A stretch of 64,000 nucleotides of DNA from Gemmatimonadota bacterium (lineage in GTDB: Bacteria; Gemmatimonadota; Gemmatimonadetes; Longimicrobiales; Gaopeijiaceae). A model generated the notes under the pieces. That model was given only the letters and a program-made list of their open reading frames with translations, ran no database searches and was not told the origin of the DNA. The stretch lies in the NCBI GenBank assembly GCA_007121555.1, contig SKKH01000175.1:1-64000 (forward strand), written 5' to 3'. Of the stretch, positions 1,520 to 64,000 are shown piece after piece (position 1 is the stretch's first letter; each line of letters opens with the position of its first letter). Made by a program: the position numbers and the translations under genes.

Positions 1520-4500
1520 ATGCGCCGGCTCCTTCTGTTGACCGCCACCGTTGTCCTGGCCGCTCCCGGGATGACCGAAGCCCAGGTTCCCGATGGCCGT
1601 TCGTTCCTTTTCAAGGATGCCCGGGCCCGCCTTGCCGAGGCGCTGGTCCGGGAGCAGGACGACGTCCTCCTCATGATCGCCGCCCGGCGGGGACAAAACG
1701 AGCAGGTCGCGCAGCTCCTCACGGGGTGGGGCGCCGACATCCACTTCCGGGCCGACGAGGTGGACTATCTCAGGGCCCGCGTCCCCATTCGTAGGGTAGA
1801 GGAGTTGGCTCGACACGAAGCAGTCTTCAGCGTGGATCTCTCGGACGTGCCGCCTCCCGAGTCGGAGGAGGACGAGGAGGAGACCGACCCACCGTTCGGA
1901 CTGCACGAAGACCGGCCGACCTACCTGGCCGGAGTGTCCGATACCACCGAGGTCTGGCCGCCAGTCTGGTCCGATTACCCTCTCCGCAACCGCTACGATC
2001 CCGTCTCCAGCATGAACGGGCTGGAATTCCGCAGACAGAACCCCACCTTCGACGGCCGAGGCGTCACGACGGCCATGATCGACCGGAGCATGGATCCGCT
2101 CCTTCCTGAGCTTCAGCACGCACTCACCCTGGAAGGGGAGCCGGTAGATAAAGTGGCGGCTTACCTTTCCGTGACCGACCGGGTGGAGGAACCGGACGAC
2201 CGCTGGGTTCAGATGGATAGCGTGGTGACCGCCTCCAGCGGCCGGATCCGCTACAACGACGAGGAATGGGCCGCGCCGCGGGAAGGCTCCTTCCGCATGG
2301 GGATCCTTCCCAAGGGCGGGTATGTGAGCGAGATCATCACCCCCGAGGCGGAGAAACCCGACTCCACCGACTTCGGGGTGCTCTGGGACGAGGACACCGA
2401 TGAGGTCTGGGTGGACACGAAGCGTGACCGGAGCTTCGCCAACGAACAGGCCCTCACCGACTTCTCGGTGCGACCGGAATTCGGGGTGATCGGGGAGGAC
2501 GACCCTTCCACTCCCATCCGGGAATCCATCGGTTTCGCCATCCAGATCGAGCGAGAGAGGACCGAGGTGGGAGTTCTCCTGGGCACCCAGAGTCACGCCA
2601 CGCTGGTGATCGGGGCCGCCGTGGCCAGCCGAGGCGAGGAAGGTCGCTTCGAAGGGGTGGCACCCGGCGCCCGGGTGGCGAACGTGGACGAAGGGTGCAA
2701 GGGCTACGGACAGACCGAGGCCGTGATTGTCGCTTTCCAGAATCCCGAGGTGGACATCGCCTTCCTGGAGCAGTGCTCCAACATCACCCGCCCCTATCTC
2801 ATCCGGGACGGACGCCTCACCACTACCGAGATTTACTCTCGTCTCATCGAGGAGTACGGCAAGACCCTCATGGTACCGACCCACAACTATCCTGTCCTGG
2901 GGGCGCCCGATGACTTCGTGTCGGCCCGCGGCGCCATGGGGATCGGGGGCCACGAGAGTCGGGACAACTACTTCACGAACACCGGGACTCGAGTGGAGCA
3001 CGAGCACAACCTCCTCGTGACTGGGGGTTACGGCCCTATGGGTGACGGGGCGCTGAAGCCCGACGTGATCGCCCCCTCCAACCACGTGAGCACCGCACTG
3101 GGATTCCAGTGGGGTCGGACCCGTCCCGGACTGTTCACCCTCCCGCCCGGCTACACCACCGCTGGAGGAACCTCCACGGCCACCCCCACCGCCACCGGTG
3201 CGGTCATGCTTCTCATGAGCGGCGCCCGACAATCGGGGATCCGGCACGAGAACGAGCGGCTGAAGCACGCGGTGACCATGGGCGCCCACCATGTTGCCCA
3301 CCTCCCGGCCTACAAGCAGGGCAACGGGGTCGTGGACATCGCCGCCGCCTGGGAAATCCTCAAGGCCCTGGACACGGTGCCGGAATTGCTCGAGATCGAG
3401 ACTCAGGCCGGGGTGCGCCACGAGTGGAGCCACCTGCTGGCCACGCCCCACGAAGGCGTGAGTATCTACGAGCGGGAGGGCTGGGCCCCGGGAGACGTGG
3501 CGAGCCGGGTGATGACATACACCCGGAGGAACGGTCCCGCCGAACCCATGGTCTTCGACGTGGGATGGATCGGCAACGAGGGGAGCTTCTCCGCGCCGTC
3601 CACGCTCACCTTGCCCTTGAACACCCCCACCCCCCTTCCTGTGACGATCCGAACGGACACGGCGGGCGTCCACAGCGCGCTCCTCACCCTGGACCACCCC
3701 TCCATGCCGGGAGGGGCGAACCGGGCCATGGTGACCGTGGTGGCGGGAGAGCCCCTCACCGCCGATAGCGGCTTCACCCACGAGAAGGAGGTGAAGGTGC
3801 CCCGGCCCGGGATGCACTCGGTCTTCTACGAGGTGCCCGAAGGAACACAGCTCCTCCGCATCGATGTGGATGCCCCGGATCGGGCCGTGGGAGTGGCCGT
3901 GGCCGAGCCCGACACCCGGTCCGTCGAGGGGATCGGCGGACCGGGGAGCACGGGCCGGACCACACACTTCGTGGAGCGTCCCAGGGCCGGGGTCTGGGAG
4001 ATCCGTCTCAGCGACACCCGCGACCTCCAGGAGTGGGACTGGGAGCAGGCTCGAGAAGAAGAGCCTGTGCCTCCCACCTCCGCCTCACTCACCGTTTCCG
4101 CTATCGGAGTGACGGTAGCCGGCGACGCTCTGGCCTCGGGCAACGGCGAAGACCGGCGTTTCGGGGAGGCTACGGTCACCAACCGGCTGGCCGAGTTCAC
4201 CGGAGGCATCGCCTCCCTTCCCCTGGGAGCCGCCCGGCAGGAGCAGCGGAGGATCGGTCCCCATGAGCAACAGCTCCTGGAAATCGACGTGCCCGAAGGA
4301 TCCACGGGCTTGATGGTTCACCTGGGAGGGTTCACCGAAGCGGAGGCCGACCTCGACGTGTACCTCCACGACTGCACCGGGGATCACTGCGACCGGGAAC
4401 GCAGCGGTGCCACTCTCAGGGGCGAGGAGTACATCTACATCGACACCCCCGCGGCGGGAATCTGGAAGGTGGTGGTGGACGGATTCCGGGTACCGGGAGA

Positions 4501-4744
4501 AGGGATCGACTACGAGTACCTGGATGTGGTCTTCAATCCGACCTTCGGAAGCGTGTCCGCAGCCGACGTTCCCAGGGAGCGAGAGCAGGATGCCTCATGG
4601 GAGGTCCAGGCCGGTCAGTGGAGGACGGAGACCTTCCCGGACGGCAGGGAGCCCTTCGCCGCGTTCCAGTTGGAAGTCCAGACCAAGGACGCCGAGACGC
4701 GACGTTTCATCATGGGTGAGTTGTTGGGAGGGCAGGACCGGTAG
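1520..4744 (+). CDS. Subtilisin-like S8 family serine peptidase, secreted, with C-terminal pre-peptidase (PPC-like) domains
   Basis: Exported endopeptidase of about 1074 residues. The ATG at 1520 is preferred over the longer open frame from 1367 because it begins a clean signal peptide (MRRLLLLTATVVLAAPGMTEAQ). The catalytic triad is visible in family order: Asp188 in TAMIDRS, His359 in SHATLVIGAA and Ser552 in GGTSTATP. The flanking sequence departs from the canonical HGTHVAG (here SHATLVIG), so this is a divergent S8 subgroup. About 170 residues precede the Asp. Two C-terminal beta-sandwich segments (roughly 755-835 and 910-1000, the latter with DLDVYLHDC) resemble PPC domains that are often removed on secretion. 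The gene stands alone, 168 bp before the DUF3179 gene. Peptidase assignment is secure; substrate unknown. Confidence 0.9.
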   Translation: MRRLLLLTATVVLAAPGMTEAQVPDGRSFLFKDARARLAEALVREQDDVLLMIAARRGQNEQVAQLLTGWGADIHFRADEVDYLRARVPIRRVEELARHEAVFSVDLSDVPPPESEEDEEETDPPFGLHEDRPTYLAGVSDTTEVWPPVWSDYPLRNRYDPVSSMNGLEFRRQNPTFDGRGVTTAMIDRSMDPLLPELQHALTLEGEPVDKVAAYLSVTDRVEEPDDRWVQMDSVVTASSGRIRYNDEEWAAPREGSFRMGILPKGGYVSEIITPEAEKPDSTDFGVLWDEDTDEVWVDTKRDRSFANEQALTDFSVRPEFGVIGEDDPSTPIRESIGFAIQIERERTEVGVLLGTQSHATLVIGAAVASRGEEGRFEGVAPGARVANVDEGCKGYGQTEAVIVAFQNPEVDIAFLEQCSNITRPYLIRDGRLTTTEIYSRLIEEYGKTLMVPTHNYPVLGAPDDFVSARGAMGIGGHESRDNYFTNTGTRVEHEHNLLVTGGYGPMGDGALKPDVIAPSNHVSTALGFQWGRTRPGLFTLPPGYTTAGGTSTATPTATGAVMLLMSGARQSGIRHENERLKHAVTMGAHHVAHLPAYKQGNGVVDIAAAWEILKALDTVPELLEIETQAGVRHEWSHLLATPHEGVSIYEREGWAPGDVASRVMTYTRRNGPAEPMVFDVGWIGNEGSFSAPSTLTLPLNTPTPLPVTIRTDTAGVHSALLTLDHPSMPGGANRAMVTVVAGEPLTADSGFTHEKEVKVPRPGMHSVFYEVPEGTQLLRIDVDAPDRAVGVAVAEPDTRSVEGIGGPGSTGRTTHFVERPRAGVWEIRLSDTRDLQEWDWEQAREEEPVPPTSASLTVSAIGVTVAGDALASGNGEDRRFGEATVTNRLAEFTGGIASLPLGAARQEQRRIGPHEQQLLEIDVPEGSTGLMVHLGGFTEAEADLDVYLHDCTGDHCDRERSGATLRGEEYIYIDTPAAGIWKVVVDGFRVPGEGIDYEYLDVVFNPTFGSVSAADVPREREQDASWEVQAGQWRTETFPDGREPFAAFQLEVQTKDAETRRFIMGELLGGQDR

Positions 4745-4793
4745 TGTGGTGAGAGGCCGAGAGCCCGCTCTGTGAGGTTGCCGGTTCGACGTG

Positions 4794-4842
4794 GAAGCAC
4801 GGTGCGAAATCGGGCCCGAAGTGCAGGAACCGTTGCACCGTG
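4794..4842. promoter_or_regulatory. Inverted-repeat box (GAAGCACGGT) upstream of the DUF3179 gene
   Basis: CACGGTGC (4798-4805) is mirrored by GCACCGTG (4835-4842) after 29 nt. The left arm is part of the 10-mer GAAGCACGGT, which recurs exactly at 8745 upstream of the neighbouring plug/DUF1111 operon, also with an inverted mate. It lies 70-119 bp before the start at 4913. Candidate operator; no regulator is identified. Confidence 0.35.
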
Positions 4843-4912
4843 TAGGGTGTTGGGCTCGTTGAAAGGCAGGGTCCTCCTCTCGACCTGCCTGCACCCTCGG
4901 CGGATCGAAATC

Positions 4913-6097
4913 ATGCCCTTCTGGTTTTCCAGCGTGGGACCCACCCCTTCTGCATTCGCCTCGGACCCGGGCCGGTTCCGACTCGTCGGAATGCCGACCG
5001 TGGCGTTCCTCCTTCTGGCCACCGGATGTACGGACCCCGTGAACTCGAGTTCCCGAGGCCAGAACGCCCTCCTGAACCTGCAGTGCAGCATCCCCAGGGG
5101 CGAGATCTTCGACGGGGGCGTGCCCGTCGACGGGATTCCCGCACTCAACAATCCCACCTTCGTGGAAGTCGGGGACCCGGACATCCGCTACCTGGATGAA
5201 ACGACTCAGTTTCTCGACCCACGGGTCGTAGGAATCCAGGTGGACGGACACCCATACGCCATACCTCACAACATCCTGTGGTGGCACGAGGTCGTGAATC
5301 TGGACCTGGCGGACGGGACGCAGCTGGCCGTCAGCTACTGCCCACTCACCGGTTCCGCTCTCGTGTTCGATCGAGAAGGGATCGGGGGAGTGGAGATGGG
5401 CGTCTCCGGTCTCATCTTTCGAAACAACCTCATCCTGTTCGACAGGAACGCCCAACGCTCGCTCTTTCCCCAGATGATGCACAGTGCGCGGTGCGGACCG
5501 GCGGATGGCCTGCGACTCGAGATGTTTCCGGCTATCGACATGCGCTGGAGCCGATGGAGGAACCTCCACCCCGACACCCGGGTCGTGAGCGGCGACACCG
5601 GAATCGATCGGGACTACACCCGATACCCCTACGGCAACTACGAGCAGTCCCGCGAACTGCTCTTTCCCCAGGACGTCCCGGGTCCGGACGAGGAAATCCG
5701 GCCCATGAAGGAGCGGATCCTGGGGATCCCGAGCCTCGACACCCCCGGTGCAGGAGGAGTGGCCGTCCCATTCGGAGAACTCGAGTTGGCAGAGGATCAG
5801 GGCGTGGCCGCGGTCTATGTGGAGAGTCCTCAGGGAAAGGCCCTGGTCCTGTGGGATGGCGCGGCCCGAGGAGCCATGGCGTTCCGGTCCAGGACAGAGG
5901 ACGATGGGCCGGTGGAATTGATGGCCGTGGACGGACGATTCCTGGATCGGGAAACGGGTTCGGAATGGACGGTGGATGGTCGAGCCGTGGCTGGCTCGTT
6001 GACGGGCGCCACGCTGGAAGCGATCTCCGACTCGTACGTGGCATTCTGGTTCGCATGGAAGGCGTTCCATCCGGACACGGAGATCTGGACCTTCTGA
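4913..6097 (+). CDS. DUF3179 domain-containing lipoprotein
   Basis: About 394 residues. Start at ATG 4913 gives an N-terminus with basic residues (GRFRLVG) before a hydrophobic segment and a lipobox ending LLLATGC, so an outer-envelope lipoprotein is likely; an internal ATG at 4991 would lose the basic region. DUF3179 hallmarks are present: DGIPALNNPTF, a NILWWHEVVN segment, SYCPLTGSALVF, a LHPDTRVVS motif and the YTRYPYGNY block. The biochemical role of the family is not established. The gene converges on the DUF1111/plug operon (83 bp gap), and both carry the GAAGCACGGT box upstream. Family call is firm; function unknown. Confidence 0.88.
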   Translation: MPFWFSSVGPTPSAFASDPGRFRLVGMPTVAFLLLATGCTDPVNSSSRGQNALLNLQCSIPRGEIFDGGVPVDGIPALNNPTFVEVGDPDIRYLDETTQFLDPRVVGIQVDGHPYAIPHNILWWHEVVNLDLADGTQLAVSYCPLTGSALVFDREGIGGVEMGVSGLIFRNNLILFDRNAQRSLFPQMMHSARCGPADGLRLEMFPAIDMRWSRWRNLHPDTRVVSGDTGIDRDYTRYPYGNYEQSRELLFPQDVPGPDEEIRPMKERILGIPSLDTPGAGGVAVPFGELELAEDQGVAAVYVESPQGKALVLWDGAARGAMAFRSRTEDDGPVELMAVDGRFLDRETGSEWTVDGRAVAGSLTGATLEAISDSYVAFWFAWKAFHPDTEIWTF

Positions 6098-6103
6098 GCT
6101 GTC

Positions 6104-6173
6104 GGACCCTCGGATTCCTATTCTGACCTCAGTCGGGGCACTGCCGAACTGCCCGGCCACGCACCGAGGGCCC
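6104..6173. terminator. Possible bidirectional structure between convergent genes
   Basis: GGACCCTCGG (6104-6113) can pair with CCGAGGGCCC (6164-6173) with one mismatch, enclosing a smaller GGGCA/TGCCC hairpin. It fills the gap between the stop codons of the DUF3179 and DUF1111 genes. There is no T-tract, so intrinsic termination is only a guess. Confidence 0.25.
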
Positions 6174-6180
6174 CAATGAA

Positions 6181-7389
6181 TCAGAGGGTACGAAGGAACG
6201 CCAGTAGAGCTTCCCGTTCGGAAGGTTCCAGCGCGTGGAAGGCCGACCTGACCGTGGCCGCTTCTCCGCCATGGAACGAGATGGCCTGCTCGAGCCGCAC
6301 CGCACGACCGTCGTGAAGGAGCTGGGTCCGAAATCTCAACCCCATGAGCATCGCCGTCCTCCACTCCGAAGGACCGGCATCGTAACTGCAGATGCTGGCC
6401 ATTTCCGGTCCCAGGTCGTGGAGGAGCAGGTCGGAGTACAGGGGCACGGGAACCCGATCCAGGGCCGCTACCTCACTGGTCCCCGTGGTCATCTCCGGGA
6501 CGTGACAGCCGGCACACCCGACCCGGTCGAAGAGGCGCTCGCCCCGATTCACTCTGGCCAACTCGTCGGGATCGTCGGGAAGGACCCGAGGCGGGGCCGC
6601 CAGGAACCGCACGTAGTCGGTGAGGATCTCCACCTCCCGGTCCGTCATCTCCGGATCCGCTGTCGGATCCACGCCTTCCGGCAGAGGCCGGTCGTGGAGG
6701 GGAACTTCGTCGGGGTGGCTGGAGGTGGTGATCCCCATCTCACCCAGCAGAGCGCCGGCGGTGAAGCTCCGGAGGTCGGCATGCGTTGCCTTCCGCCCGA
6801 AGCGTCCGGGGCGGCCCTCGATCGTCGTTGCCACCCTGCCCGGGGTCGACGATTCGGGACGGATTCCGGAAGCGGCCCGGGCATGGATCTGTTCGTCGGG
6901 GATGGCGTCTACGAGGCCCATGCCGTAGAGGGGCGGTCCGATCATTTCCACCACGTCCGTCGCCCAGGGCGGGACGGCGGATCGGGTCATGCCCTCCTCG
7001 TCCAGCGCCTGGGCCAGAGCGGGGGTCATCCTCTGCTGCACGAGAGCATTGCCATCGGGGCCAGGCAGTTCGCACCGAGCTTCGTCCTCGATCCACCGGG
7101 AGACCAGGGTCACCGGGTCAACGCCGGTCCCTCCGCTCGTGGGGGTGTCGTGGCAGGAGAAGCAGGAATTGTCGTTGAAGAGGGGCCCCAGGCCCTCCTC
7201 CGGTGCGAACTCTCGCATGAAGAGGGCCTGGCCCTGCTGAAAGCGCTGCAACTCCTGGGTCGTCAAGCCCGGAAGAGGCTCTCCCGGAGGGGCCGTGATG
7301 GGTGGGGACGGCTCCCCGCAGCCGACCGCGGCGGCGGCGAGTCCTCCCCAAATTCCCAAGAAGGGAATCCATTTCCGGGGTCGTCTCAC
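6181..7389 (-). CDS. Di-haem DUF1111 (thiol-oxidoreductase-like) lipoprotein
   Basis: About 402 residues. The GTG start at 7389 overlaps the TGA of the upstream plug gene (GTGA), indicating translational coupling. It gives MRRPRKWIPF, a hydrophobic stretch and AAAVGC, a lipobox. Two c-type haem motifs are visible: CFSCH near residue 75 and CAGCH near 292. The C-terminal pattern (PLYSDLLLHDLG, LRFRTQLLHDGRA, SFHGGEA) is characteristic of DUF1111, a family related to MauG/CcpA di-haem proteins. Predicted to sit in the periplasm and carry electrons or oxidise a substrate; the true reaction is unknown. A paralogue lies at 19021-20220. Confidence 0.9.
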   Translation of the reverse strand: MRRPRKWIPFLGIWGGLAAAAVGCGEPSPPITAPPGEPLPGLTTQELQRFQQGQALFMREFAPEEGLGPLFNDNSCFSCHDTPTSGGTGVDPVTLVSRWIEDEARCELPGPDGNALVQQRMTPALAQALDEEGMTRSAVPPWATDVVEMIGPPLYGMGLVDAIPDEQIHARAASGIRPESSTPGRVATTIEGRPGRFGRKATHADLRSFTAGALLGEMGITTSSHPDEVPLHDRPLPEGVDPTADPEMTDREVEILTDYVRFLAAPPRVLPDDPDELARVNRGERLFDRVGCAGCHVPEMTTGTSEVAALDRVPVPLYSDLLLHDLGPEMASICSYDAGPSEWRTAMLMGLRFRTQLLHDGRAVRLEQAISFHGGEAATVRSAFHALEPSEREALLAFLRTL

Positions 7390-58097: not shown

Positions 58098-61000
58098 TCA
58101 GGGCCGCCCGGCGGTTCCGGGAACCTCGAGCAGGGCCAGCCAATCCTCCGGTCCATCGGCTACACGGGCCTGGACTTCGGAGCGAACCAGATCCCACTCC
58201 GGGTCGGCGTCGCGCCAGAGTTCGGCCGCCCTCCGATAGGCCGCCGAAGCCGCGGCGCGGTCGCCCTGGGCCTCGTGCACCTCTCCGATCCGGACCCAGG
58301 AAGCCCCCAGGAGCGGAGCCTCGCCGAGACTGCTACGGACCAGCGTCTCGTACCATCCCAGGGCCGCCTCTGCGGCTCCTTCCTCCCGTAGAAGCTCGGC
58401 CAGAAGAAAGCGCTCCCGTGCCAGGGAGTAGAGCGGGGAGAGCCGGGTCCGCTCGTACCAGGTGCCGGGGGCGGTGAGAAGCTTCTCGAAGCTCTGCAGG
58501 GCCAGCGACCGCTCCTGACTCCGTCGCACGGCTTCAGCCTCCAGGGCGCGGGCGAGGAGTGGACCAAGGGGAGCCTCGTGCGGTGGGAGAGCGTTCAGTG
58601 CCTCCACCGCCTCGCCCAACGACGGCCGCGGGGTGGATGACGCCTGGGCCGACGCCCCTCCCAGGGCCGCGAGGTACCAGCCCAGATCCTCGTCGACTCC
58701 CGCCGTCCTCGCCGCCTCCGTGCCCGGCACGAGGGTCGGCCCCCCCCACGAGTCTCGTGGCGCAGCGGGTCGGGGCGTCATATCTCGCGCAGGACGGGCC
58801 CCGGGGGGATCTTCGATCACCAGAGGAAGCCCACCGCTCACCTCCAGGGCCCGGAGCTCCAGCAGGGCCTCCGGGAGCGAGTGAAGGTAGGCGCGCAGGA
58901 GCGCCCCCTGGGAAGGAGCGATTTGCTCGAGGGCGGTCACCTCGTCTCCGGCAGCTCTCAGGCGCCCCATGGCCAGCTCGAGAAAGGCGGCCCGGGTATG
59001 GCCCCGCGCCCGCTCCAGGTCGGAGGACGCCTCCTCAGCGCGGGTCCGCGCCAGTTCGAGGGCTCCGGGCACTTCGTGGAGATACCTCACGAGATATTCC
59101 ACGGCCCAGCCCACGGCTCGGTCGGGCTCATGCCGCGCTCGTTCGAGGACTCTTAGCTGGGCGGGCCGGTTCCGGGTGGCCCAGGCCGCCAACGCCTCCA
59201 CCGAGAGGTTCGGACCCTGGTCCGGGTCTCCCGCCGACAGACGCTCGAGTATATGTGTCAACTCGTTGACCCGGCCCTCACTGACCTCGGTCAGGGCCAG
59301 ATGGAAGAGCGCACCCCGATGGTCGGGCTGGACCTCCAGAACGCGCTCCCAGGCCTCCCGGGACTCCGAGGGAGCCCGACCCATCACCGGTGCATAGTGA
59401 AACAGGACCTCTCCCAGATTGAACCAGGCCTCCACGTTCTCCGGCTGGCGGATGAGGATCTGCCGGTAGAGGCGCTCCGACTCCATGGGCCGCCCCCCGA
59501 GGAAGGCGTCCAACGCCGAGATCAGGAGTTGCTCCTGCTCCGGAAGGCGGGATGCGTGGGCCCGCCCCCTCTCGATCCAGCTCCGGGCCAGGTCGAAGTC
59601 CGGAGATCCCATCCACAGAGCGCTCAAGGCCCCCCGGTAGTAGGCCAGAGCAAAGGAGGGATCGAGGTCCACCGCCACCTCCATGGCCTGGAACGCGCCC
59701 TCGTAGTCCCCCCTGCGGTAGAGATCCTCGCCTTCGAGGAAGCTGCGGAAGGCCGGAAGGGAGTGGGTCGTGACGGCAGCCGTCCGGCCCAGCCAGCTCC
59801 CAGCTGGAAGATGCTCCATCGCCAGGATCTCGCGAACCAGATCGTCCATGATCTGGAAGAGGAGGGTTTCATCCGTCGTGTGCTTCCGGAGGGAGGCCAG
59901 CAGATCGCCTCCCTGGCGGTACAGATAGACGATGATCTCGATCCGACCGCCGAACTCGATCACGCTGCCGGTGATGTAGAACTGGGCGTCATAGCGCTCG
60001 GCGATCCGGTCCGCCTCCCGCACGGGAACGGGGCCGGGAACGCGCGCCTCATCCAGGGCCGAGGCCACGGCCAGGGGATCGACCATCCGGAGGGGCCGGA
60101 GCTCACCCAGGCTGATGTTCAGGAGTTCGGCCACCCCGCTCCCGAGGTACGCGTAGTCCTCGCTCCCCTGAAAGGAGAACGGGAGAACGGCGACCCGGGC
60201 CCCGGCGTCGGTGGCGAGAGTCGAGGCCTCGCTCGAAGGCCCTTCCCGCCCGATCAGCGCGATGGCCAGCCCCAGCATCACGGCGAACGCCCACCCCGTG
60301 AGAGACACCGGGCCCAGCCCCAGCACCGTGCGAGTTCGCCGTCGGGGATGCCGAAGCCCGGTCGAGCCTTCCGGCGCCGCATCGATCCAGGGGGGCCGTC
60401 GATCGGAGTCCCCGGCCCGGCGCCTCGGTCCGCCGGAATCGGTGGTGACATGGGGCCAGGCCTCCGGCTCGGGAGTCCCGGACCCCGGAAGGGCCGAAGG
60501 TGACCGGGCCGGGGCCTGGCCCGTAGCCCCTGAACCAGCGGAAGTATTCAGACCGATGCGGGCCACGAGCTCCCGCGTCGCCGTGGAGGGCTCGACCCCC
60601 AGCTCCCGCTCGAGGCGCTCCTCGAACTCCCGGTAGACCGAGACGGCGCGACCTCGGTCACCGGCCAGCTCCAGCGCCGAAAGAAGGCAGCGAAGGGGCC
60701 GCTCCTCTAGAGGCGCGATCCGCACCGCGGATTCGGCATGGCGGCAGGCCGTCGGGAGATCTCCCGCCTCCCGGGCCTCGTCAGCGGCGGCCATGGCCGC
60801 ATCTCGGGCGCGACCTTGAAGGAGGGACCGGGCCTCATCGAGCCAGCGATCGAACTCAGGGTGGTCGGGAAGGGAGAAGCCCTCGAGCAAAGGTCCGGTA
60901 TAGAGCTCGAGGGCGCCGCTGGCATCGCCCGCGTCGAGCCGTTGCTGGAAGAGCTGGACATCCGCCCGGAGGAAGTCCGGTGCGATCCGAACCCGATCCG

Positions 61001-61259
61001 CCTCCTCGGTCGGCAGAGCCCGCTTGCCCAGGGACCTTCGGAGAAAGTAGAGGGCCTGGCTCAGCGCGTGCCGACCACTTTCGGGGTCCGCATCAGGCCA
61101 AAATAGGGACACAAGGTGGTCCCGGGACGCGGAACCACCCTGCTCAATGGCAAGGAAGGCAAGTAACGCGATTCGCTTGGGCTGGCTCAGAACGGAGCGT
61201 ACCGCCACGCCGTTGCCATCGACAAGCTCCACGCGTCCGAAGCAGCGGAGCTCATGCAT
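58098..61259 (-). CDS. Transmembrane SARP-type regulator: OmpR-like wHTH, BTAD, membrane helix, FlgO-like and TPR domains
   Basis: 1053 residues from ATG 61259 (an upstream in-frame ATG at 61298 is possible; neither has a strong ribosome site). Residues 1-95 form an OmpR-like winged helix (LRCFGRVELVD, LAIEQGGSASRDHLVSLFWP, ALSQALYFLRRSLG). Residues about 100-250 are the BTAD helical domain (YREFEERLERELGVEPS). A disordered linker leads to one membrane helix (about 318-340, SLTGWAFAVMLGLAIALIG). The exported part begins with an FlgO/TolB-N-like fold (VAVLPFSFQGSEDYAYLGSGVA) and continues as TPR repeats to the end. Family precedent: SARPs activate promoters through direct repeats; such repeats lie 80-120 bp upstream of its start. 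Confidence 0.92.
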   Translation of the reverse strand: MHELRCFGRVELVDGNGVAVRSVLSQPKRIALLAFLAIEQGGSASRDHLVSLFWPDADPESGRHALSQALYFLRRSLGKRALPTEEADRVRIAPDFLRADVQLFQQRLDAGDASGALELYTGPLLEGFSLPDHPEFDRWLDEARSLLQGRARDAAMAAADEAREAGDLPTACRHAESAVRIAPLEERPLRCLLSALELAGDRGRAVSVYREFEERLERELGVEPSTATRELVARIGLNTSAGSGATGQAPARSPSALPGSGTPEPEAWPHVTTDSGGPRRRAGDSDRRPPWIDAAPEGSTGLRHPRRRTRTVLGLGPVSLTGWAFAVMLGLAIALIGREGPSSEASTLATDAGARVAVLPFSFQGSEDYAYLGSGVAELLNISLGELRPLRMVDPLAVASALDEARVPGPVPVREADRIAERYDAQFYITGSVIEFGGRIEIIVYLYRQGGDLLASLRKHTTDETLLFQIMDDLVREILAMEHLPAGSWLGRTAAVTTHSLPAFRSFLEGEDLYRRGDYEGAFQAMEVAVDLDPSFALAYYRGALSALWMGSPDFDLARSWIERGRAHASRLPEQEQLLISALDAFLGGRPMESERLYRQILIRQPENVEAWFNLGEVLFHYAPVMGRAPSESREAWERVLEVQPDHRGALFHLALTEVSEGRVNELTHILERLSAGDPDQGPNLSVEALAAWATRNRPAQLRVLERARHEPDRAVGWAVEYLVRYLHEVPGALELARTRAEEASSDLERARGHTRAAFLELAMGRLRAAGDEVTALEQIAPSQGALLRAYLHSLPEALLELRALEVSGGLPLVIEDPPGARPARDMTPRPAAPRDSWGGPTLVPGTEAARTAGVDEDLGWYLAALGGASAQASSTPRPSLGEAVEALNALPPHEAPLGPLLARALEAEAVRRSQERSLALQSFEKLLTAPGTWYERTRLSPLYSLARERFLLAELLREEGAAEAALGWYETLVRSSLGEAPLLGASWVRIGEVHEAQGDRAAASAAYRRAAELWRDADPEWDLVRSEVQARVADGPEDWLALLEVPGTAGRP

Positions 61260-61338
61260 GATGAATCGAAGATAAAGCGGCGGAGCCGGCAGCGCCATCG
61301 AGACGGAGATAGAGGGACATGGGTGCAGAGTGGGCCAG

Positions 61339-61371
61339 GTGATTCCCGCGTGATAGCCCGGTGATACCCCC
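61339..61371. promoter_or_regulatory. Three 11-bp direct repeats, candidate SARP operator
   Basis: GTGATTCCCGC, GTGATAGCCCG and GTGATACCCCC begin at 61339, 61350 and 61361, exactly one helical turn apart. Counting 7-bp half-sites, the last ends at 61367. Eight bp later is CATTCT (61376-61381), a poor -10, which a bound activator could compensate for. It lies between the SARP gene and the divergent SusC gene. Confidence 0.65.
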
Positions 61372-61460
61372 GCGCCATTCTCTCGTCGCGAGATCTCGCC
61401 CCCTGCGGCGAACTCGGGCCGTCATCCCGAGGTTTCACGCTTCCAGGATGGAGGAAACCC

Positions 61461-64000
61461 ATGAGCCTGCTCTACCGTCACAGCACTGTCGACCCCGTCC
61501 GCCCACCGCCGGGAGCATCGCACCCGGCCGGCCGCCTCGGGGCCCTCCTCTTGGCCGGCATCGCCCTGGCGATCGTCCTGGCCCTTACCCTCCCCGGCGC
61601 CGCCGTCGCCCAGGCCACCGGATCCATTGACGGGCAGGTCCGGGACGGCGACGGACTTCGGCCCCTGGCCGGCGCCCAGATCCAGTTGGTCGGCACCGAG
61701 CGAGGAGTCCTTACCGACCCCTCGGGTCGATTCACCCTTCCAGAGGTCCCCGCGGGCACCCACCGACTGAGGGTCGTCATGTTGGGGTTCGCCACCCGCG
61801 AGGTCGAGGTGGACGTTGCCGCCGGCGAGGTGGCCACGGTCCAGATCGACCTCCGGCGGGCCGCCCTGGCCCTGGACGAGGTGGTCGTCACCGGCACCGC
61901 CGGAGGCACCCAGCGCCGGGCGCTGGGCAACGTGGTGGATCGGCTCTCGGCCGCGGACCTGGCCGAGGTGACGCCGGCTCAGAGCCTGAGTCAACTCATC
62001 GGACAGCGTTCGGCCGGAGTAACAATGGGTGGCGACGTCGGCCAGGTCGGCACCGGCACCCGGATTCGGATCCGGGGCGTTCAGACCATGGGGCTGCCCA
62101 ACGATCCCATCATCTACATCGATGGGGTCCGGATGGACAACAACCCCACCTCCGGCCCCGGCCAGCGGGGCGGTGCTCGGGTGAACCGCCTCAACGACAT
62201 CGCCCCCGAGGACATCGAGAGCATCGAGATCATCAAGGGACCGGCCGCGGCCACCCTCTACGGGACCGAAGCCTCCAACGGGGTGGTCCAGATCATCACG
62301 AAGCGGGGGGTCGAGGGCGACGCCCGGATCGACTTCACCGTGCGGACGGGAACGAACTGGCTCTGGAACCCATCGGGACGCCTCGGCGAACGGTGCGCCA
62401 CCCCGCCGGGAGTCACCGGGGTCCCCACTGAAGACCAGCTCGTCTGCTTCAACGTCATCGACCACGAGCGGGAATTCGGGACCGGCGACATCTTCACCTA
62501 CGGGTTCACCCAGACCTACCAGGCGAACATCAGCGGGGGGACCGACCGCTTCCGCTACTTCACCTCGGGCTCCTTCCAGGACAACACGGGGGTCCTCGAG
62601 CACAACTGGGACCGCCGCCTGAACGTCCGGACCAATCTGGACGCCACCCTGACGGACGAACTGAACCTTCAGACGAGCGTGGGCTACGTCGAGGGCAAGA
62701 CCCGGCTGGCCCAGGGCGGATTCAACAGCGATCCGTTCAGCAACATCTTCTGGTCCAACCCCAACTTCATCGAGAGGAACGGGGGCTACTTCCGCGCTCC
62801 CCCCACCGAGTGGCGGAAGATCGAGGACCGGGCCGACGTGGACCGGTTCACCGGGAGCGTCCAGATCCGCCACAATCCCATCTCCTGGTTCAATCACCGC
62901 GTGGCCATGGGGCTGGACAACGTGAACGAGCGCAACTGGTCGCTCACCCCCCGGCAGCCCGAGGGTACGGCCCACTTCTTCGGTGGGGACGCCCTGGGAA
63001 CGCGGTCCGAAACTCGGGCTCGGGTCCGGATCTGGACCTTCGACTACTCAGCCTCCGCCAGCCATGACGTGGGCGACCGGCTGAACTCCACCACCTCGGC
63101 CGGACTCCAGTACTACCGGAACGAGCGGGAGACGGTGGGGGCCTCGGGATCCAACTTCCCGGCTCCCCAGATCACCACGGTTTCGGCCGCCTCGGACCGG
63201 AACGCCTCACAGACCTTCGAAGAGAACAGCACCCTCGGCGTCTTCATCCAGCAGCAATTCGGATGGGACAACCGGCTCTTCGTGACCGGCGCGGTGCGCG
63301 GCGACGACAACAGCGCCTTCGGTGCCGAGTTCGAAGCCGCCATCTACCCCAAGATCAGCGCGAGCTGGGTCGTCAGCGAAGAGGATTTCCTGGACCTCCC
63401 CTGGCTGGCGGAGCTCCGCCTCCGGGGGGCCTGGGGCGCCGCCGGACAGCAGCCCGGGACCTTCGACGCGGTTCGGACCCTGAGCCCCCAGGTCGGGGCT
63501 GGCAACCAGCCGGGCCTCGTTCCCAGCGCGTTCGGAAACCCCGACCTCGAGCCCGAGCGGGGTGAGGAGCTGGAGATCGGGTTCGACGCCCAGCTCTGGG
63601 ACGGTCGCGTCACCGTGGAATACACACGGTTCCAGCGGACAACGAAGAGCGCCATCGTGGCCCGACCCCTCTCGGCGTCCCTCGGATTCCCGGGAAGCCA
63701 GTTCGTGAACCTGGGCGAGGTCAAGGCCTGGGGGAACGAGCTCGCCCTGAGCACGAGGGTCATGGAGGGAGGCTGGGGAAGCTGGGAGCTGGGAACACAG
63801 CTCGCCACCAACGCCAACGAGATCCAGGAGCTGGGGCCGGATCAGGACTTCATCTCCGGACCGGGCTCCGTTCGCCACCACCTGGGACACGGGGTGGGCG
63901 ACATCTACTACCGGACGGTCCGGCAGGCCGAAATCGACGAGACCGGACAGGTGACCCTGGCCCTCTGTGACGGGGGAACGGGTCGATTCGGTGTCGAACA
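61461..64000 (+). CDS. susC-like: SusC/RagA-family TonB-dependent outer-membrane receptor, 3' end outside window
   Basis: 846 residues seen and continuing. GGAGG lies 7 nt before the ATG. Long N-region and signal peptide (LGALLLAGIALAIVLALTLPG, cleavage near AVAQA), then CarboxypepD_reg-like domain (GSIDGQVRDGDGLRPLAGAQ). The plug follows (LDEVVVTGTAGG, DPIIYIDGVRMDNNP, IESIEIIKGPAAATLYG, SNGVVQIITKRG), then barrel strands. A CATPPGVTGVPTEDQLVC segment just after the plug may form a disulfide loop. Divergent from the SARP gene, whose probable operator lies about 90 bp upstream. No SusD is visible before the window ends; one may follow. Confidence 0.93.
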   Translation, partial: MSLLYRHSTVDPVRPPPGASHPAGRLGALLLAGIALAIVLALTLPGAAVAQATGSIDGQVRDGDGLRPLAGAQIQLVGTERGVLTDPSGRFTLPEVPAGTHRLRVVMLGFATREVEVDVAAGEVATVQIDLRRAALALDEVVVTGTAGGTQRRALGNVVDRLSAADLAEVTPAQSLSQLIGQRSAGVTMGGDVGQVGTGTRIRIRGVQTMGLPNDPIIYIDGVRMDNNPTSGPGQRGGARVNRLNDIAPEDIESIEIIKGPAAATLYGTEASNGVVQIITKRGVEGDARIDFTVRTGTNWLWNPSGRLGERCATPPGVTGVPTEDQLVCFNVIDHEREFGTGDIFTYGFTQTYQANISGGTDRFRYFTSGSFQDNTGVLEHNWDRRLNVRTNLDATLTDELNLQTSVGYVEGKTRLAQGGFNSDPFSNIFWSNPNFIERNGGYFRAPPTEWRKIEDRADVDRFTGSVQIRHNPISWFNHRVAMGLDNVNERNWSLTPRQPEGTAHFFGGDALGTRSETRARVRIWTFDYSASASHDVGDRLNSTTSAGLQYYRNERETVGASGSNFPAPQITTVSAASDRNASQTFEENSTLGVFIQQQFGWDNRLFVTGAVRGDDNSAFGAEFEAAIYPKISASWVVSEEDFLDLPWLAELRLRGAWGAAGQQPGTFDAVRTLSPQVGAGNQPGLVPSAFGNPDLEPERGEELEIGFDAQLWDGRVTVEYTRFQRTTKSAIVARPLSASLGFPGSQFVNLGEVKAWGNELALSTRVMEGGWGSWELGTQLATNANEIQELGPDQDFISGPGSVRHHLGHGVGDIYYRTVRQAEIDETGQVTLALCDGGTGRFGVE

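Follow-up and report, generated by a model that had tools for sequence, protein, structure and literature searches.

The regulator and receptor genes

The window, meaning here the whole 64-kb stretch of DNA analysed, ends in a divergent gene pair. On the minus strand lies the gene for a 1053-residue BTAD-TPR regulator (58098-61259), and on the plus strand the gene for a 1037-residue SusC/RagA-type TonB-dependent receptor, which runs from 61461 to the end of the window at 64000 and continues to position 64574 of contig C32. The mechanical open reading frame of the regulator begins at 61298, but the ortholog (L115) aligns from the methionine of an internal ATG at 61259, and 61259 (MHELRCFGRVEL) is most likely the translation start rather than 61298; the gap between the two genes is therefore taken as 61260-61460. 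A ribosome-binding site, GGAGG (61450-61454, plus strand), is positioned 6 nt before the SusC ATG at 61461. A sequence-only reading of this DNA had identified a regulator gene of this kind adjacent to and divergent from a SusC receptor gene, and both identifications were borne out, the former by the BTAD profile described below and the latter by Pfam and NCBIfam (TIGR04056, 405.7 bits against a cut-off of 368). Three genes follow SusC; their products, judged from sequence without a family scan, are SusD-like, an S9-type peptidase and Ig/LVIVD-like. An antibiotic or secondary-metabolite target, which is the usual role of SARPs and not a structural criterion, is thus not what this operon provides. 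Further along contig C32, past the window and on the strand opposite the SusC operon, imidazolonepropionase-, formimidoylglutamase- and urocanate hydratase-like genes of histidine degradation were seen (L269:15488-19087). An Rfam scan of 60500-62500 gave no match.

Domain structure of the regulator

The N-terminal domain of the regulator (60555-61259, minus strand) is SARP-like by sequence and by predicted fold. It comprises a winged helix (about residues 25-80) and a BTAD domain (residues 113-235), the N-terminal combination by which SARPs are recognized, as identified by Pfam, by comparison with PDB sequences and by Foldseek. BTAD was matched at 2.9e-15 (60.4 bits, cut-off 22.1); Trans_reg_C reached 22.0 bits, under its cut-off of 26.2, and the fold search still matched AfsR across the whole domain. 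The N-terminal 253 residues found AfsR (8hvr, 4.4e-4) and EmbR (2fez, 1.5e-3) as best matches among PDB sequences, and a structure model of the N-terminus searched with Foldseek likewise gave AfsR (8k60, 2.0e-6) and EmbR (1.1e-5). The models were built from two sequences only, with pLDDT of 65-66 and TM-scores to AfsR of about 0.5. No receiver domain was detected in the regulator by Pfam scan, whereas an OmpR/PhoB response regulator would have one, with a phosphoacceptor aspartate.

One transmembrane helix is predicted at residues 318-336 (60252-60308, minus strand), by hydropathy only; it is preceded by an arginine-rich RHPRRRTR, consistent with an N-terminus-in orientation, and is kept in L115. 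Because this helix follows the SARP domain, the protein is probably located in the inner membrane, as a membrane-anchored SARP resembling CadC and ToxR in its predicted topology. The remainder (58101-60251, minus strand) is predicted to be periplasmic, with a VAVLPF-type alpha/beta subdomain followed by TPRs, on the basis of profile matches and weak fold matches: TIGR04510 scored 9.6e-17 over residues 376-778, below its cut-off, TPR matches occur in the C-terminal part, and the CadC periplasmic domain (3ly9/3ly8) is among the weak Foldseek matches. Pfam gave no match for residues 300-520. The similarity to CadC is weak, to 5ju7 by sequence and to 3ly9 by fold, and a sensor role for this part is inferred. 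The arrangement is not confined to this protein, as 25 of 51 Gemmatimonadota BTAD proteins passed the same hydropathy threshold. In about half of those examined a single predicted helix directly follows the SARP domain, mostly with an arginine-rich sequence before it; a few of the 25 matches lie a long way further along the protein and might not span the membrane at all.

The repeat array and candidate promoter

Between the two genes, direct reading of the sequence confirmed the proposed GTGAT motifs at 61339, 61350 and 61361, an exact 11-bp pitch. The array GTGATTCCCGC-GTGATAGCCCG-GTGATACCCCC (61339-61371) consists of plus-strand units at 61339-61349 (GTGATTCCCGC), 61350-61360 (GTGATAGCCCG) and 61361-61371 (GTGATACCCCC), which have mainly the GTGAT cores in common and differ in their spacers. 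A potential fourth unit, GAGTGGGCCAG at 61328, was too weak to count. A search for GTGATN6GTGATN6GTGAT gave a single exact match in the 64-kb window and one more elsewhere in the 4.05-Mb genome; for the genome as a whole, chance would give about 0.008 (15 fixed bases, both strands), and a reversed-pattern control gave none. GTGAT doublets, present at 12 places genome-wide, were left out of the evidence. A SARP operator is expected to consist of directly repeated heptamers spaced by 11 (or 22) bp, and the window has this form, as do its ortholog and the phylum set described below.

The sequence-only reading had also placed a -10 element, CATTCT, 8 bp past the third heptamer (GTGATAC, ending at 61367). 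It is indeed at 61376-61381 on the plus strand, at exactly that spacing, which is the one expected of a SARP promoter, though it is weak as a -10, with three of six positions identical to TATAAT. No sigma-70 consensus promoter was found in 61200-61500 by promoter scan. Better -10 hexamers occur 7-8 bp from the last repeat in the ortholog, the paralog and the phylum set.

Conservation and recurrence of the array

Loss of the repeats from orthologous gaps would have counted against an operator, but the triple is kept. The same-genus genome G409 (PWWP01000130, Gemmatimonadetes) has the same divergent pair, with the regulator 54% and SusC 84% identical, and its gap retains GTGAGGTCCAG GTGATAGCCCC GTGATACCTGA, counterparts of units 1, 2 and 3 respectively, followed by TAGGAT, while the remainder of the gap has diverged and is poorly alignable. 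A wider contig search with the regulator returned a single relative, L115, apparently the same locus as that in G409.

The second exact triple in the genome lies on contig C57, about 150-200 bp before another SusC gene, which is followed by SusD and amidohydrolase genes; its third unit is GTGATACCCGC, and no BTAD gene adjoins it. The C57 receptor is 52% identical to that of the window and has closer SusC relatives on contigs C25 (61% over 727 residues) and C1 (55%), whose upstream regions gave background scores only and have no such operator. Shared descent alone therefore does not readily explain the operator common to the window and C57, whose SusC genes are the only two of the genome's 53 Plug-domain genes with the full GTGAT triple. 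At a further locus, on C75 (L075:931-1716 and 1948-6608; G000:C75), a small SARP of 254 residues is divergent from SusC/SusD genes, with the triple GTGACCGTCAG ATGACTCTCAC GTAACCCTCAC (GTGAC/ATGAC/GTAAC) between them. Here TAAGAT begins exactly 8 bp past the last heptamer, in the same register as CATTCT, whereas TAGGAT in the ortholog and TAAGCT at C57 come one base earlier, at 7 bp.

Pitch and orientation across the phylum

Exact-triple matches in other genomes are partly microsatellite-like, and for that reason the tests for enrichment relied on pitch and orientation and set raw counts aside. With no sequence assumed, the best three-unit 7-mer self-similarity was scored at each pitch in 130 regions upstream of Gemmatimonadota BTAD genes, a score of at least 16 of 21 defining a strong triple. 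At a pitch of 11, 25 of the 130 regions had one, against 0-4 at pitches 7-10 and 12-16, 0.8 in dinucleotide shuffles, and 1 of 50 control SusC upstream regions of the same genome at the 11-bp pitch. A replicate on new loci gave 5 of 27 at pitch 11 and 0-1 at other pitches. The effective sample is smaller than 130, since the regions include some close relatives, and about 80% of the BTAD genes were without a strong triple. Control regions at a distance of 600-820 bp showed a rise at pitches 9, 12 and 15, as predominantly coding sequence would. When a -10-like hexamer was also required 1-8 bases into the fourth unit, 15 regions qualified in the direction of the divergent gene and one backward, with at most one at any other pitch; the window itself does not pass this oriented test.

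Starting instead from the DNA, a search of 395 genomes for an RTGAY triple with TANNNT at the right distance found 17 sites, against one for the reversed control. Seven of the 17 directly adjoin a divergent BTAD gene and ten do not. An RTGAY triple followed by TATGAT precedes a non-BTAD gene whose product has a response-regulator-like N-terminus, and this arrangement is kept in two related genomes (L148, L149; G021, G023). Near-perfect 11-bp GTGAT tandem arrays of microsatellite-like character were also seen away from BTAD genes (G108:C5, G294:C3, G313:C53). At L102 (G262:C353:4435-4461), an exact GTGAT triple is directly upstream of or overlaps a BTAD start and points at the BTAD gene, an arrangement for which autoregulation is possible.

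The repeat sequences vary between loci, and their similarity follows that of the recognition helices (Mantel r 0.22, p 0.001; 0.17, p 0.004, once the remainder of the domain is partialled out), a correlation to which shared ancestry could add. The divergent genes at the 25 strongest regions, judged by eye, mostly encode exported or lipoprotein-like products. SusC is therefore just one of the envelope proteins targeted, and a BTAD gene divergent from a SusC gene was found in no more than three places (the window, its ortholog and C75). The proposal that SARP operator logic acts on a TonB receptor was accordingly supported by comparison, through the ortholog, the 11-bp pitch, the orientation and the SARP-like domain, but SusC proved to be a rare target.

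Possible functions of the repeats

The reading favored here, with a probability of roughly 0.8, is that the divergent BTAD regulator has these three 11-bp units as its operator, activates the SusC operon and senses from the membrane; there are no binding, transcription or start-site data. A chance or microsatellite-like tandem repeat without function is very improbable: near-perfect GTGAT arrays do exist away from BTAD genes in some relatives, but the units in the window share little beyond their cores, and the triple has outlasted the divergence of its flanks in the ortholog and recurs before a second SusC gene. It could also be supposed that another winged-helix response regulator of the OmpR/PhoB type binds the repeats and that the BTAD gene is only a neighbor. 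PhoB boxes, in which direct repeats of 7 bp are separated by 4 bp, can share the 11-bp pitch, and the ten RTGAY sites without an adjoining BTAD gene fit such a view. This explanation is at odds, however, with the enrichment found ahead of BTAD genes across many genera, where the heptamers differ and track the neighboring recognition helix, and with the seven sites that adjoin BTAD genes although they were found without reference to them; it is considered unlikely.

Slightly less remote, though still improbable, is that the BTAD regulator does bind the repeats but acts chiefly as a repressor, or chiefly on its own gene, and does not activate susC. The gap is common to both genes, and the triple at L102 is placed as autocontrol would have it; however, the repeats with their -10-like elements face the divergent gene and not the regulator by 15 to 1, and there is no consensus promoter for a repressor to block. 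Activation of the SusC operon by the divergent regulator thus remains the preferred reading.

For such activation, each of the three units would be occupied by one SARP domain, with neighboring domains aligned along the same face of the DNA; the units would reach from about -49 to -17 relative to a start near 61388 that is itself inferred from the candidate -10. The bound regulator would bring RNA polymerase to a promoter whose -10 is weak and which lacks a good -35, much as AfsR works at afsS, and would thereby switch on the SusC-SusD-peptidase operon and, putatively, the second SusC-SusD operon on C57. From the inner membrane, the TolB-like/TPR part may sense a periplasmic signal in the manner of CadC or ToxR. 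That the signal is a peptide or peptide-derived is a guess, made because the operon contains a peptidase.

Comparison with known regulators

In Streptomyces coelicolor, AfsR binds two 11-bp repeats centered at -29.5 of afsS, where the -10 is CACTGT (PMC10936776). The window resembles this layout in its direct repeats of 11-bp pitch, followed after 8 bp by a weak candidate -10, and its last two units, at about -38 to -17 from a start near 61388, agree with it within two bases; it differs in having three units rather than two, a nutrient-receptor target and a host in the phylum Gemmatimonadota. In a pairwise alignment, the AfsR backbone contacts W74, P79, R94 and K95 correspond to W54, P59, R74 and R75 of the regulator, whereas R92 and T88, with which AfsR reads bases, are matched by F72 and Q68 (AfsR contacts from PMC10936776), as expected because the heptamer differs. 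Like the large SARP AfsR (8hvr, 8k60), the regulator has a winged helix and BTAD domain at its N-terminus and TPRs at its C-terminal end, but it is without a NOD/ATPase domain and has a transmembrane helix. Its predicted layout, with an OmpR-type winged helix in the cytoplasm, a single membrane-spanning helix and a part in the periplasm, would be that of CadC and ToxR, from which it differs in the BTAD domain of its head and its 11-bp direct-repeat operator.

The winged helix-BTAD fold is also that of EmbR of Mycobacterium tuberculosis (2fez, 2ff4), a BTAD regulator of cell-envelope genes that, unlike the window regulator, carries a C-terminal FHA domain and is soluble and kinase-controlled. 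SusC/SusD operons of Bacteroidota are controlled by SusR, HTCS and ECF sigma/anti-sigma systems, an unrelated type of regulator. DnrS of Thermus thermophilus is a BTAD regulator from outside the actinomycetes whose activated genes are unrelated to antibiotics, but it joins a GAF domain to a C-terminal BTAD and responds to oxygen, and the text of the paper mentions no direct repeats (PMC5748679). SARPs were described in 2020 as occurring exclusively in actinomycetes (PMC7040171). Searches of literature titles and abstracts, with subscription papers outside the scope, for BTAD regulators in Gemmatimonadetes, for BTAD with SusC and for transmembrane SARPs gave no account of the arrangement seen here.

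Significance

In summary, judged from sequence, a Gemmatimonadota bacterium appears to turn on an operon for nutrient uptake through the outer membrane by means of the repeat-operator layout known from antibiotic regulators of Streptomyces. The presence of this layout beside related regulator genes across the phylum suggests that such control extends far beyond actinomycetes and the making of antibiotics. SARP architecture and operator geometry recur in another phylum, where the operators point at envelope genes and the regulators are often predicted to be membrane-anchored. How SARP activation arose and what its general role is can thus be put to the test, and targets could be predicted from operators for many uncharacterised BTAD regulators of a poorly studied phylum. 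Whether membrane-anchored SARPs form a phylum-wide class, each with its SARP head in the cytoplasm, a helix across the membrane and a TPR sensor in the periplasm, and each activating a divergent envelope gene through its own 11-bp direct-repeat operator, is evenly balanced on present evidence. If true, the class would represent transmembrane one-component signalling by the sigma-adaptation mechanism of SARPs, with envelope targets that include the SusC/SusD receptor here and lipoproteins elsewhere.
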